Source: Nitrosomonadales bacterium (GTDB lineage Bacteria; Pseudomonadota; Gammaproteobacteria; Burkholderiales; Gallionellaceae). Taken from it: a stretch of DNA of 52,798 nt. Shown here piece after piece: positions 47,916-52,786 of the stretch. The stretch's first letter is position 1. Every line of letters begins with the position of its first letter. Both the position numbers and the translations under genes were made by a program. Location: positions 1 through 52,798 of the forward strand of contig JANXWX010000041.1 in NCBI GenBank assembly GCA_025350915.1, read 5' to 3'. Below the pieces are notes generated by a model, which made no database searches, was not told the origin of the DNA, and saw nothing but the letters and a program-made list of their open reading frames with translations.

Positions 47916-47936
47916 CTGCGACAATTTGCCACATTC
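47916..47936. promoter_or_regulatory. 21-bp operator, copy A, with -10 TATAAT at 47957-47962
   Basis: Core TGCGACAATTTGCCACA is an imperfect palindrome. A 20-base gap separates the 21-bp block from a perfect TATAAT upstream of the TonB receptor gene. The same block recurs at 51809-51829 with identical spacing. It overlaps the expected -35, so binding would directly control RNA polymerase. Confidence 0.7.
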
Positions 47937-47999
47937 TCTGCCACAGATTCAATATCTATAATTCGCGCCTGGTTTAATCAGGCTACAGAGTTCTTGAAT

Positions 48000-50129
48000 A
48001 TGAAATCGAGTATTACAAAGTTTTCCTCTCTAAGTTTTAGTGTTCTTTCCATTGCGTTGATACAAGCGGTATACGCGGCTGATGATGCATCTGTCCTTGA
48101 CGAAGTGGTGGTGAGCGGTTCACGCACTGAAACAAAATTATCTGACACGCCCATGTCCATTGGCTTGGTCGATGAAAAATCGCTGAAGCGCGACAAGCCG
48201 AAACTAATGGGTGATGCGATCAACCGACTTGCAGGAGTTAGTTGGGTTGATCTGGGTAATGAGCAGCATATGATGGGTATTCGCCAACCGAACAGCACCA
48301 ATGCTGTGTATCAATATCTGGAAGACGGCATCCCGATTCGGCCGTTGGGTGTGTTTAACCACAATTCGCTGAATGAGTTAAATCTGGCCGGTGCAGAGCG
48401 TGTCGAAGTGGTAAAGGGCGCTTCGTCATCGCTATACGGCAGTAATGCAGTCGGTGGCGCGGTAAATTTTATTACGGCGCATCCTTCGTCGACACCCGAA
48501 GCGACGGTCGGTTTTCGCAATGAAGCGGTAACAGGCTATCAGCGTATCGATACCGGTGCGAACAATACCTGGGGTGATATGGGTATGCGTTTCTCGCACT
48601 ATAGTTCTCGCCGCTCGGAGAATAACTGGCAGCAATACATTAACGGCAACAAAGATTCTGCAACGTTGCGTACAGACTATGCGCTGAGTGGTTCATCGTT
48701 GTTGCATGCGGTCGTGTCCTATAATAATCTTGATTCAGCCACGCCGGGTAGCTTGAATCCAGTGGACTTTCAACTCAGTCCGGGGAAGAGCTACCAGACT
48801 TTTTCATATCGCAAAGATAAAACGGCACGGGCGAATATCGGCTGGGAAGGCGAAACAATCAACGACGGCTTGAGCACTGTAACGTTGTTTGCGCGTGACA
48901 ATGATCACGGCCAGTTGCCTAATTACACGATCAGCGCCTGTACGATTAGTGCGGCCTGTCCGAGCGGATATCGCGGAACAATCAACAACAACCATGTCAG
49001 TTCGCTGGGTCTTGATGCAAAACACCAGCAGGAATTTACATTCCTCTCTTCACGTTTGGTTGGCGGTCTGTACTACGATTTGAGTCCCAATACTTACATT
49101 AGCGATAACCTGGATGTGACACGGGATCCAGCCACGCTGGTTTACACAGGCTATGCACCCAATACGACCTATGCAACAGGTACGCGCGACTATAAAACAT
49201 ATATACGCAATGTTGCGTTATTTGCGCAATGGGAACTCAGCCCGCTCGATAAAGTGCGAGTAGTAATGGGTGGTCGCTACGACACCATCAACTATGGTTT
49301 TGTGAATTACCTGACCCCGGGTGTTGATTATGGTGCAGCAAATGAATCGCGTGACTTCAGCCATTTCAGCCCAAAATTAGGTGGCACTTATTCTGTGAGT
49401 GCAAATACCAATTTATTCGTCAATGCCAGCCAGGGCTTTACACCACCCGAAGTAAGCCAGCTGTATGGCAAGAGCGCAATCCCTGATTTGCGTCCGGCCA
49501 CTTATGATAGTTACGAAACCGGACTACGCATGGCATTTTTTGAACGTACACTGAAATTCAATGCCACATTATTCAGGCTTGATGGTCGTGACACCATCGT
49601 GAGTTACACCATTACACCGGGTAATTCAGAAAACCGCAATGCCGGCAGCACGCGTAGCACCGGTGTGGAGATTAGCCTGAGCTATGAAGCAGGAAAGCTG
49701 GATGGCCGTGTAGGAGCAAGTCTTGCCCACCACCAGTACATAGACTATCAAGCTTCAAGCACACTGGACTACAGCGGCAAGGATATGCCCGTTGCGCCAA
49801 ATACACTTACTGCTGAAATCGGCTATAAACCAATACCCGATGCACGGCTCGCTTTTGAAGTAATTCAGCAAAGTTCTTACTGGATGAATAATGCCAATAC
49901 GGTGAGTTACTCAGGTTACACGTTGCTTAACTTGCGCGGCAATTACAAGATTGATACTGCATGGGAAAGCTGGATACAGGGGCGCAATCTGACTAATCAG
50001 CTATATGCCGAAACAGCCAGCAGTTCATATAGCGGCATAGGCGCTTATGATGCACTGAAAGACCAGTATACAGTTGGCGCGCCCAAAAGTCTGATGATAG
50101 GTTTGACCTATACATTTGCAGCAAGGTAA
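48000..50129 (+). CDS. TonB-dependent outer-membrane receptor
   Basis: A 709-residue outer-membrane beta-barrel receptor that imports a bound ligand using the TonB/ExbB/ExbD system. The signal peptide ends in VYAADD. A TonB-box-like segment (LDEVVVSGSRTE, about 35-46) is followed by the plug domain with RLAGVSWVDLG, VYQYLEDGIPIRPLGVFNHN and ERVEVVKGASSSLYGSNAVGGAVNFIT. The barrel ends with SLMIGLTYTFAAR, a terminal aromatic-containing strand. One loop carries a small Cys pair (SACTISAACPSG). The ligand is unknown. An ATG at 48000 is used, and the TTG at 47994 is unlikely. It shares an operator with the BNR protein at 51.9 kb. Confidence 0.93.
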   Translation: MKSSITKFSSLSFSVLSIALIQAVYAADDASVLDEVVVSGSRTETKLSDTPMSIGLVDEKSLKRDKPKLMGDAINRLAGVSWVDLGNEQHMMGIRQPNSTNAVYQYLEDGIPIRPLGVFNHNSLNELNLAGAERVEVVKGASSSLYGSNAVGGAVNFITAHPSSTPEATVGFRNEAVTGYQRIDTGANNTWGDMGMRFSHYSSRRSENNWQQYINGNKDSATLRTDYALSGSSLLHAVVSYNNLDSATPGSLNPVDFQLSPGKSYQTFSYRKDKTARANIGWEGETINDGLSTVTLFARDNDHGQLPNYTISACTISAACPSGYRGTINNNHVSSLGLDAKHQQEFTFLSSRLVGGLYYDLSPNTYISDNLDVTRDPATLVYTGYAPNTTYATGTRDYKTYIRNVALFAQWELSPLDKVRVVMGGRYDTINYGFVNYLTPGVDYGAANESRDFSHFSPKLGGTYSVSANTNLFVNASQGFTPPEVSQLYGKSAIPDLRPATYDSYETGLRMAFFERTLKFNATLFRLDGRDTIVSYTITPGNSENRNAGSTRSTGVEISLSYEAGKLDGRVGASLAHHQYIDYQASSTLDYSGKDMPVAPNTLTAEIGYKPIPDARLAFEVIQQSSYWMNNANTVSYSGYTLLNLRGNYKIDTAWESWIQGRNLTNQLYAETASSSYSGIGAYDALKDQYTVGAPKSLMIGLTYTFAAR

Positions 50130-50190
50130 GCCGGCTTGATATTAACGGTTAGCCGTACGATGACCGTAGCAGGTTACAGTTGATATAAAA

Positions 50191-50226
50191 ATTAATAGCC
50201 GCAAACTTCTTCGCGGCTATTTTTAT
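50191..50226. terminator. Bidirectional terminator after the TonB receptor gene
   Basis: ATAGCCGC (50195-50202) and GCGGCTAT (50213-50220) form a perfect 8-bp stem. TTTTTA follows on the plus strand and A-rich sequence precedes, so it may also end the convergent SDR transcript. Confidence 0.85.
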
Positions 50227-50246
50227 TCGTGATTCAATTTTAATAC

Positions 50247-50996
50247 CTATACTGCCAGATATCCCCCATCAACGACCAGGTCAGTCGCATTCACATAGGA
50301 AGATTCGTCGGAAGCCAGGAATAATGCTGCATTGGCTATTTCTTCCGGACTACCAAATCGATGCATGGGAACCGTCTGAGTGATGGATGCACCCAAGCCA
50401 TCCAGTGCTTCCTGGGGTAAACCTGTTTTGCCATAGATGGGCGTTGTAATGCCGCCCGGACTGATAGTGTTCACCCGGATACCTCTTTCCCCAAGATAGG
50501 AGCCCAGCGTTCCGCCCAGTGAGATGACAGCTGCTTTGGTTGCGGAGTAGGCGGCCATCATCGCAAAACCTTTATGCCCGGCGATTGAGGAGGTCATGAT
50601 GACTGACGAGCCTTTGCCCAACAACGGTAATGCCTTCTGTATCGTAAAGAAAGGACCTTTGATATTCACATTCATATTGCTGTCATAGTCAGCTTCTGTT
50701 GTAGCCTCAAATGGCTTCATTGCGGCAATACCGGCGTTAAGGAACAGGACATCAATTTTACCGGCTGATTTCTTTACTTGCTCAAGCAGGCTGTCAATAT
50801 CGGTAAGGCTGGCCGCATCCGATTTGATGATCGTAATCTCCCTGGGTAAAGAGTTCTTTGCTTCCGCCAAGGTTTTGTCATTGTGTCCCGTGATGAATAC
50901 GCGGGCGCCTTCAGCGTAAAAGAGTTTTGCTGTGGCATAACCTATGCCTGTTGTTCCACCGGTTATTAGCGCTATTTTCCCTTTTAATCTGCTCAT
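50247..50996 (-). CDS. Short-chain dehydrogenase/reductase (SDR) family oxidoreductase
   Basis: A 249-residue classical SDR with cofactor motif TGGTTGIG (residues 12-19), NAG (87-89), catalytic Ser in MTSSIAG (about 136) and YSATK with Tyr150 and Lys154. RVNTISPGGITTPIYGKTGL and the C-terminal YVNATDLVVDGGYLAV are usual. The GHND sequence after the second strand gives no firm NAD/NADP preference. I start at 50996 because GGAG lies six bases upstream. The longer frame to 51131 is unsupported and runs through an operator. The substrate is unknown. The adjacent TetR gene probably controls it, possibly in response to an electrophile or quinone. Confidence 0.88.
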   Translation of the reverse strand: MSRLKGKIALITGGTTGIGYATAKLFYAEGARVFITGHNDKTLAEAKNSLPREITIIKSDAASLTDIDSLLEQVKKSAGKIDVLFLNAGIAAMKPFEATTEADYDSNMNVNIKGPFFTIQKALPLLGKGSSVIMTSSIAGHKGFAMMAAYSATKAAVISLGGTLGSYLGERGIRVNTISPGGITTPIYGKTGLPQEALDGLGASITQTVPMHRFGSPEEIANAALFLASDESSYVNATDLVVDGGYLAV

Positions 50997-51103
50997 TTGT
51001 ATCTCCATAATATATATTAACGGAATGATTGTTCTGGAATTGGGTAAAAAAATATGGTCAGTAACTATTTCATGGGCATCTCCTTTATATGTTATATGGT
51101 TTA

Positions 51104-51121
51104 ACAGAACATCCATTCTGT
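51104..51121. promoter_or_regulatory. TetR-type operator O1, before the SDR gene
   Basis: ACAGAA-CATCCA-TTCTGT is a perfect 6+6 palindrome between the tetR stop and the SDR start. It shares the flank TTTAACAGAA with O2 at 51729-51746, strongly suggesting the same protein binds both. Confidence 0.72.
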
Positions 51122-51137
51122 TTATGGGCAAAAAAAT

Positions 51138-51716
51138 TTAAAGTGAAGCCAGCGACATTTTCAGGGTGTTACCTATCATCTCCCTGCTGGCACCCGAGCG
51201 CACCATAACCGAGGCGCCAAGCAAGGTGCCGGTTAAAAAATCAGCAGCCTGTTTTATGTCCAGATCGGCTCTGACTTCGCTGCGATCTTTGGCATTCGCC
51301 AATGCCTTGGTAAATCCGTCTGTCATTCTGACCAGCGCGATTTTGACTTTTTTTTGTACTGATTTATCATGGGGCGCTACTTCGGTCGCGGTGTTGCACA
51401 TCAAACATCCCAATTTGCCTTCCGGTTGCGCATACCAGTTGAGTAAGGTGTCGAAATAAAGCCTGATTTCCGGCATGGCAGCACCGGCGTGTTCAATAAT
51501 GCCGAAATAAGCATTCACAGCTGTATTTTGATAATGATCCAGGCTGGCCAGAAACAAGCCGCGCTTACTGCCAAATTCATCATAAAGACCATATCTGCTA
51601 ACCCCGGTGGCATCGACAAGATCATCAATGGAGGTGTCGACATAGCCCTTTTGCCAGAACACCATCATCGCCTTTTCGAGTGCTTCAGTAGGATCAAATT
51701 CCCGGTTTCTTGCCAT
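51138..51716 (-). CDS. TetR/AcrR family transcriptional regulator
   Basis: A 192-residue repressor with an N-terminal helix-turn-helix (about 10-55): FDPTEALEKAMMVFWQKGYV then TSIDDLVDATGVSRYGLYDEFGSKRGLF, the standard TetR_N signature. The C-terminal part has Cys in LGCLMCNTATEVA, which resembles redox-responsive or electrophile-responsive TetR proteins (NemR/QacR-like). Whether those Cys residues sense anything is inference. It is transcribed toward the SDR gene. Matching palindromes lie at its own promoter and before the SDR gene, indicating autoregulation and control of the oxidoreductase. Confidence 0.88.
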   Translation of the reverse strand: MARNREFDPTEALEKAMMVFWQKGYVDTSIDDLVDATGVSRYGLYDEFGSKRGLFLASLDHYQNTAVNAYFGIIEHAGAAMPEIRLYFDTLLNWYAQPEGKLGCLMCNTATEVAPHDKSVQKKVKIALVRMTDGFTKALANAKDRSEVRADLDIKQAADFLTGTLLGASVMVRSGASREMIGNTLKMSLASL

Positions 51717-51728
51717 TGCTATTGTTTA

Positions 51729-51746
51729 ACAGAATATACGTTCTGG
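51729..51746. promoter_or_regulatory. TetR-type operator O2, at the tetR promoter
   Basis: ACAGAA-TATACG-TTCTGG begins 13 bases upstream of the tetR start codon. It matches O1 in both arms (11 of 12 bases) and in the left flank, and lies where a repressor would block its own transcription. Confidence 0.7.
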
Positions 51747-51808
51747 ATAATTCTCTGCGCATTAAATCATCCTGTCAAGCAAGGCAAACTCCATTTGTGG
51801 ATCAGCGC

Positions 51809-51829
51809 CTGCGACAAATTGTCACATTC
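51809..51829. promoter_or_regulatory. 21-bp operator, copy B, with -10 TATAAT at 51850-51855
   Basis: Core TGCGACAAATTGTCACA is a better palindrome (TGCGACA/TGTCACA) than copy A, with three differences over 21 bases. The 20-base gap to a perfect TATAAT is identical. It precedes the BNR protein gene. Confidence 0.7.
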
Positions 51830-51898
51830 CCCATATTCAGCCTAATAACTATAATGTTGGAGGCCATTTAATTGGGCGTATATTTTTGGAGCATATTG

Positions 51899-52786
51899 AT
51901 GGAATTACGTTTTTTGCCCGGACTATTTTTCAGTTATTTACTGTTCAGTACGGTATATGCAGCAGACCAGAGCAAGCCGCATGACATGTCAAAAATGTGG
52001 CAAAAATCATTGTCCAGCAGGCAAATTTCTGCCACTGCAGTTTTCGATGAGCAGGGAACATTGTGGCTGGCACGTGTAGAAGACGGCCATGTATTGGTAA
52101 GCAATTCGTCAGATCAGGGTAAATCGTTTAGTGATCCAGTAGAAGTTAATCAGCAAGTCGAAGCTGTTGCGGCAAGCGGTGAGACCAGACCGAAAATTTT
52201 ACGGGCCAATAACGGCAATATCTATATCGCATATACACAAAGCCTGGATACACCCTTTGCCGGAAATATCCGTTTCAGTCGTTCTGTAGACGGTGGCAAA
52301 AGTTTTTCTACTCCAATCACTGTCAATGACAATCTTGACCCCATTACACATCGTTTCGAGACGCTGGGTATTAACGCACGCGGGCAGATTTTTCTGGTAT
52401 GGCTGGATAAACGCGATGCCGTTGCAGCGAAGAGTAAAGGTGAACAATATTCCGGTATAGCCCTATATTCCGCGATGTCGGATGACGAAGGCAAAAGCTT
52501 TCACGCCAATACAAAGGTAGCAGACCATACCTGCGAATGTTGCCGTGTCGCGATGGCGATTGACAATACCGATACACCGGTAATTGTATGGCGGCATATA
52601 TTCGGCAAGAACGTGCGTGATCATGGCCTGGCTCGTCTTGATGGCAGCATGGGCAAGAATGGTGCCGAGTCGCAAGTACAGCGAGTCACTTTTGAAAATT
52701 GGGAAGTGGATGCCTGTCCGCACCATGGGCCGGCCTTGACTATCACTGGCGATGTCTATCACCTGACCGAAATACTGTTCGGTTAG
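51899..52786 (+). CDS. Secreted BNR/sialidase-like beta-propeller protein, possibly truncated
   Basis: A 295-residue protein with a signal peptide (MELRFLPGLFFSYLLFSTVYA). The mature part has repeated Asp-box turns: SSDQGKSFS, SVDGGKSFS and SDDEGKSFH, typical of sialidase-fold propellers. A Cys-rich motif HTCECC (about residue 218) and ACPHHG (about 277) could bind a metal. No sialidase Arg triad is evident, so sialidase activity is not implied. I start at 51899, where GGAG is seven bases upstream, rather than at TTG 51872. The stop at 52784-52786 comes soon after a conserved-looking segment, so the chain may be shortened by a frameshift at the window edge. It shares its operator with the TonB receptor. 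Confidence 0.75.
   Translation: MELRFLPGLFFSYLLFSTVYAADQSKPHDMSKMWQKSLSSRQISATAVFDEQGTLWLARVEDGHVLVSNSSDQGKSFSDPVEVNQQVEAVAASGETRPKILRANNGNIYIAYTQSLDTPFAGNIRFSRSVDGGKSFSTPITVNDNLDPITHRFETLGINARGQIFLVWLDKRDAVAAKSKGEQYSGIALYSAMSDDEGKSFHANTKVADHTCECCRVAMAIDNTDTPVIVWRHIFGKNVRDHGLARLDGSMGKNGAESQVQRVTFENWEVDACPHHGPALTITGDVYHLTEILFG

Follow-up and report, generated by a model that had tools for sequence, protein, structure and literature searches.

Systems of the RegB/RegA type, which include PrrB/PrrA, ActS/ActR and RoxS/RoxR, are usually described with regulons of degenerate operator sites, and the phospho-dependent action of RegA does not need Cys156. The RegA of R. capsulatus is a copper-binding protein in which this residue forms a copper-dependent disulfide cross-link (PMC9147068). 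In RegB, the GGXXNPF motif has been described as the quinone feature and Cys265 as the redox cysteine (PMC8191878). Published operators include YSCGGC-N5-GWCRMA for PrrA and GNGRCRTTNNGNCGC for RegR, and no RegA motif was deducible in the iron oxidiser Acidithiobacillus ferrooxidans (PMC5506826). RegA has been tied to iron transport in R. capsulatus (PMC5359404); in Methylomonas sp. DH-1 it is linked with the uptake of ferrous iron, where it binds the feo promoter and affects a TonB receptor and a tonB operon indirectly (PMC13274454). Another system that resembles the locus described below is CrtA/BfrG of Bordetella, a TonB-dependent copper transporter regulated by CruR and apparently linked to the copper supply of respiration, with TonB/ExbBD, PCuAC and Sco genes sometimes alongside, a PepSY_TM neighbour in over 75% of the CrtA loci and the conserved ligand-site residues Y130, W265, E337, Q356, H358 and R395 (PMC12914433).

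The window analysed here, 52,798 nucleotides long, is the complete contig C151 of a genome of 2.97 Mb in 263 contigs that belongs to an iron-oxidiser-type bacterium of the Gallionellaceae. Within it, a gene for a TonB-dependent receptor and a gene for an exported BNR beta-propeller protein are each preceded by a 21-bp block, CTGCGACAATTTGCCACATTC (47916-47936) and CTGCGACAAATTGTCACATTC (51809-51829), with exactly 20 bases between each block and a TATAAT downstream of it (Table 1). A preliminary description of this DNA had given the agreement of the two blocks as 18 of 21 bases; the count is 19 of 21, and the positions and the distance to TATAAT were confirmed. The core of the twin sites is a 17-base palindrome, TGCGACANNNTGTCRCA, with TATAAT 23 bases past it; a -35-like hexamer (TTCTCT or TTCCCC), a poor match, abuts each box, and TATAAT follows 17 bases further on. 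No other pair in the window agrees at 18 or more of 21 bases at an equal position relative to TATAAT, and in 300 first-order Markov windows the best comparable pair reached 14/21, with none at 18. High identity inside one window might also be left by a recent duplication or a mobile repeat, but this origin is extremely improbable here, as the likeness ends at the promoter elements while spacer and flanks differ, the genome of Gallionellales bacterium 39-52-133 has the same pair before the same two genes, 5.9 kb apart, and the conservation of the box alone before orthologues contradicts it.

Table 1. Features of the twin promoters and their genes, with positions in the window.
Feature	Position	Strand	Basis or remark
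Predicted RegA box of the TonB-receptor promoter, TGCGACAATTTGCCACA	47917..47933	+	Box before the orthologous receptor in all 12 of the 12 family genomes that hold it
Poor -35-like hexamer TTCTCT adjoining the box	47934..47939	+	Sequence; TTCyC behind the box in most relatives; role deduced
-10 box TATAAT, 23 nt past the 17-bp box	47957..47962	+	TANNAT at +22/+23 in relatives
TonB-dependent outer-membrane receptor, 709 aa from ATG 48000	48000..50129	+	Pfam PF00593, PF07715; orthologues 62-81% identical
SDR oxidoreductase, intervening, convergent, without RegA box; outside the regulon	50247..50996	-	Family search
TetR-family regulator, intervening, without RegA box; outside the regulon	51138..51716	-	Family search
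Predicted RegA box of the BNR promoter, TGCGACAAATTGTCACA	51810..51826	+	Box before BNR in relatives (L044, L047, L051, L052, L056)
Poor -35-like hexamer TTCCCC adjoining the box	51827..51832	+	Sequence; conserved TTCyC; role deduced
-10 box TATAAT, 23 nt past the 17-bp box	51850..51855	+	Equal distance in relatives
Exported BNR/Asp-box beta-propeller protein, cut short by the contig end; invariant CECCR, RDH, CP-H-HG	51899..52786	+	Relatives about 410-450 aa

The genome search proposed in the preliminary description was carried out with the consensus of relatives, TGYGRCANNNTGYCRCA, and yielded exactly three exact matches in 2.97 Mb, where about 0.2 are expected from its degeneracy, in place of the many randomly placed copies that had been named as evidence against a shared regulator. 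Two of these lie in the window, and the third, a perfect palindrome, precedes a RegB/RegA (PrrB/PrrA) operon of sensor kinase and regulator. A scan with TGYGACAAWTTGTCRCA, allowing at most one mismatch, likewise gave three places, two in the window and TGCGACAAATTGTCGCA at C57:5082-5098, located 34 bp upstream of a RegB/PrrB-type histidine kinase gene that is followed by a RegA/PrrA-type response regulator gene. When TANAAT at +23 was added to TGYGRCANNNTGYCRCA, the only exact genome matches were the two window sites. One-mismatch sites numbered 13 against 5 in the control, and among those with near architecture (contigs C169 and C181) no convincing fourth promoter was found. The loose pattern TGCGACANNNTGNCACA with two mismatches gave 34 genome matches and its backwards control 32, and such loose sites are therefore not evidence.

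The kinase encoded behind the third site (L029:5133-6413) carries GGSTNPF at residue 97, the phospho-acceptor His225 and Cys265, and the regulator combines an NtrC-type receiver domain with a Fis-type HTH containing NMHRRTLQR, features shared with the RegB/RegA, PrrB/PrrA, ActS/ActR and RoxS/RoxR systems. The best NCBIfam families were NF033792 (ActS/PrrB/RegB) for the kinase and NF033791 (ActR/PrrA/RegA) for the regulator, with scores below the equivalog cut-offs, at 245 of 350 bits for RegB and 193 of 250 bits for RegA; the RegA cut-off of 250 bits was reached by none of 250 genomes of the order. Unlike the R. capsulatus protein, this RegA lacks Cys156 and has only Cys21, and the family sequences inspected also lack a cysteine at that position, so that the copper-dependent disulfide route of R. 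capsulatus is unavailable here in the same form. Upstream of regB lies an ORF (L029, 3817-4983) in which a fatty-acid desaturase (PF00487) is joined to an ISL3-type transposase fragment (PF01610).

Of the 12 positions of the PrrA pattern YSCGGC-N5-GWCRMA, the window sites match 11 and 10, and the pattern is fitted fully by sites in the regB promoters of relatives, for example TGCGGCATTTTGTCGCA. The likeness to RegA/PrrA-type operators suspected from the window alone was correct; the early view that the sites do not match this type exactly is amended by their fit to the published pattern. The same early suspicion had extended to CusR/CopR-type sites, and indeed the TGACA/TGTCA half-sites look alike and copper proteins occur among the targets in relatives. 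Ownership of the box by such a metal-responsive, OmpR-type regulator is nevertheless very improbable, given that the box-carrying regulator gene encodes an NtrC-type receiver and a Fis-type HTH, not an OmpR-type protein, that the promoter architecture is confined to RegA-positive genomes (see below), and that the published RegA, PrrA and RegR motifs fit the box with its 5-base spacer (PMC5506826). A regulator of the CusR/CopR (OmpR/PhoB) type was rejected because the one at the third site is of the RegA type.

The box is widely conserved in relatives. RegA is present in 113 of 120 family genomes, and the exact core TGYGACANNNTGTCRCA occurs in 78 of the 120, at about 150 places in all; the backwards control gave about 5. 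A box with 0-1 mismatch lies just upstream of regB in 26 of the 30 regBA loci examined, and it also precedes the BNR gene or the TonB-BNR operon in relatives, usually 22-23 nt ahead of a TANNAT -10. Of 131 box contexts, a set that includes a few loci chosen because they contain the receptor, 28 had TANAAT at +21 to +24; the other 50 offsets together gave 8. Across 250 genomes of the order, the box with TANNAT at +23 gave 62 sites in 41 genomes and none in the control. RegA scores in these genomes fell into two classes split by a wide gap (E at most 2.5e-37 against at least 1.4e-25), with 114 positive and 136 negative genomes. All 41 architecture-bearing genomes were RegA-positive and none of the 136 RegA-negative genomes had the architecture (Fisher p 9e-17, a value that ignores kinship and overstates independence); outside the family, the corresponding numbers were 38 of 107 RegA-positive and 0 of 136 RegA-negative genomes. 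The strict architecture is missing from 73 RegA-positive genomes of the order, and the regulon therefore varies. Second copies of regA lie directly beside the TonB-receptor/BNR locus in two genomes (G009:C17:43994-44473 and G076:C50:9577-10095).

The box is assigned to RegA because the third site precedes regB-regA and the architecture occurs only in RegA-positive genomes. It is proposed, with a probability of roughly 0.88, that both genes are under RegB/RegA control via the twin boxes. The earlier proposal of one shared regulator is strongly supported, by the rarity of the sites, by the third site and by the confinement of the architecture to genomes with RegA; the SDR/TetR pair between the two genes, which it called unrelated, is not counted as part of the regulon. 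RegB, a membrane kinase, would phosphorylate RegA in response to a reduced quinone pool or to low oxygen, as known for RegB elsewhere. A RegA dimer would then bind TGCGACA-N3-TGTCRCA directly upstream of the weak -35, with the box centred near -44 as judged from geometry, and bring RNA polymerase to the TATAAT that lies 23 nt further on; the same geometry suggests class II-like activation rather than repression. RegA would also activate its own operon from the perfect copy of the box. Predicted autoregulation, an operator like YSCGGC-N5-GWCRMA and GNGRCRTTNNGNCGC, and a connection with copper enzymes of respiration, among them ccoN and nosZ, are shared with RegB/RegA-type systems elsewhere. 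The latter have degenerate, variably spaced sites, in contrast to the strict palindrome at a fixed distance from the -10 found here, with only three exact sites in this genome and targets centred on TonB uptake and copper supply.

Some promoters show further box arrangements. Overlapping tandem boxes 15 bp apart with a common half-site were seen at five loci (L105, L111, L114, L128 and L130), and a cluster of three box-like sites at another (L049, 3461-3523), which suggest cooperative RegA binding. In the regB promoters of relatives (L091-L120; for example L094, L097 and L267) only about 6-10 nt separate the -10, TAAAAT or TAGAAT, from the regB ATG, and the regB transcript may therefore lack a leader or carry a very short one.

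Relatives of the BNR gene were found genome-wide in Gallionella, Nitrotoga, Sulfuricella, Thiobacillus, Methylomonas and others. Of 65 readable BNR loci, 47 have a TonB receptor directly upstream of BNR and 42 have a TlpA-like thioredoxin directly downstream, with TonB, ExbB and ExbD after the TlpA-like gene in part of them. Where such operon loci bear the box, it precedes the receptor gene, in most cases with TANNAT at +23. The usual form is thus a single operon, with one RegA promoter in Gallionellaceae and near relatives. A BNR gene with its own box occurs in this genome, in Gallionellales bacterium 39-52-133 (G002) and in several Nitrotoga genomes. The twin promoters are best read as a TonB-receptor/BNR/TlpA operon split in two, each half with a RegA promoter; in this genus the targets would be the two halves of the usual operon of TonB receptor, BNR beta-propeller, TlpA-like thioredoxin and TonB/ExbBD, with a promoter copy on each. 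The search of the own genome turned up no TlpA-like partner, a negative of limited weight because the BNR gene runs into the contig end. The BNR gene is also common in methanotrophs and other proteobacteria (L221-L258: Methylomonas, Methylobacter, Magnetovibrio and others); most of these lack the RegA box, and the gene there is presumably under different control.

A full-length relative of the BNR protein matches PF13088 and PF02012, and the predicted model (pLDDT 82, pTM 0.83) has sialidases among its top PDB matches, with TM of about 0.5. The CECCR, RDH and CP-H-HG residues are invariant in 15 relatives and suggest a metal or redox site. The ORF departs from its relatives about 30 bases short of the contig end (52769-52798) and then stops, at an assembly edge or an insertion; these final 30 bases had no match in the other loci examined and nothing useful in plasmids.

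The receptor is closest, among solved structures, to PqqU/YncD (PQQ, 102 bits) and FecA (ferric citrate, 81 bits), with CrtA (9rvq) at 56 bits. Its neighbours in the window are focA-type, SDR, TetR and BNR genes, and no PepSY_TM gene was found there. Assignment to the CrtA copper subfamily was rejected, since PqqU and FecA score above CrtA and the PepSY_TM neighbour is missing from the window. Like CrtA/BfrG, the receptor is apparently linked to copper supply for respiration and occasionally has TonB/ExbBD, PCuAC and Sco genes alongside; it differs from CrtA/BfrG in its low similarity, in its neighbours and in its predicted control by RegA instead of CruR. With Methylomonas sp. DH-1 the locus shares an influence of RegA, here a predicted one, on a TonB receptor and a tonB operon; there these effects are indirect and feo is the direct target, whereas here a conserved box stands at the receptor promoter itself.

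What the receptor imports is suggested by the other genes behind the box. Pfam assignment of 58 such genes in relatives gave 19 TonB receptors, 4 PCuAC, 4 RegB and 3 TonB proteins, together with cytochromes c, 2 multicopper oxidases, 2 NosZ and one each of COX1, SCO1/SenC and MbnP; the box-bearing genes of the family also include a cbb3 oxidase gene (ccoN). The preliminary description had seen metal uptake as a possible theme; the box-bearing genes of relatives give it indirect support and point to copper as the probable metal. On this basis, supply of a copper complex for respiration is the best inference for the role of the locus and a fairly probable one. The receptor would import the metal complex, and the Cys/His-rich propeller and its thioredoxin partner would reduce the metal or hand it on in the periplasm, most likely for copper-dependent respiration. 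The own genome encodes an aa3-type and a cbb3-type oxidase; no box was found in the DNA around their genes, and no copper protein gene with an exact box was seen in this genome, so that the case for copper comes from the relatives.

RegA could equally control both genes if the substrate were iron, another metal or an organic molecule and not copper. This alternative is the less probable one and still a serious one, considering that the closest solved receptors take PQQ and ferric citrate and none of them is a copper receptor, and that work on Methylomonas (PMC13274454) and on R. capsulatus (PMC5359404) connects RegA with the uptake of ferrous iron and with iron transport, respectively. It is weakened by the copper chaperones and copper enzymes among the box-bearing genes of the family, by the lack of feo- or Fur-type genes among those examined, and by the frequency of the BNR family in methanotrophs and denitrifiers, both of which depend on copper.

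A wider proposal can be put forward tentatively, at slightly less than even odds: in Gallionellaceae and neighbouring betaproteobacteria, RegB/RegA may have turned into a compact copper-supply regulator that couples a TonB uptake operon to the redox state of the quinone pool. This operon would comprise a new Cys/His beta-propeller for metal handling (BNR, CECC...CPHHG) and its thioredoxin partner, and copper import would rise when copper-dependent oxidases and N2O reductase are needed. The type of regulator is known, while its regulon and targets are apparently new and its sites unusually sharp, as judged against a limited open-access literature; a search of that set found nothing relevant on an association of BNR, TonB and copper. 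A sharp operator and fixed promoter geometry obtained by comparative genomics make RegA regulons readable from sequence in iron-oxidising, nitrite-oxidising (Nitrotoga) and sulfur-oxidising betaproteobacteria, all hard to grow, and point to an unstudied uptake operon with a propeller protein of metal-binding appearance; they also hint that redox sensing and the acquisition of copper are connected.

Several other proteins recur behind the box. Box-linked sequences resembling four-helix copper-storage proteins, without a Pfam match, were noticed in relatives, and a CopC-like sequence stands behind a box at order level (L280). An outer-membrane-type protein of about 330-360 aa (CxxC...TL..DW..QG), mostly without a Pfam family and possibly a metal-related porin, is often found behind a RegA box (L066, L068, L076, L082, L145, L155, L156, L160, L167 and L171).
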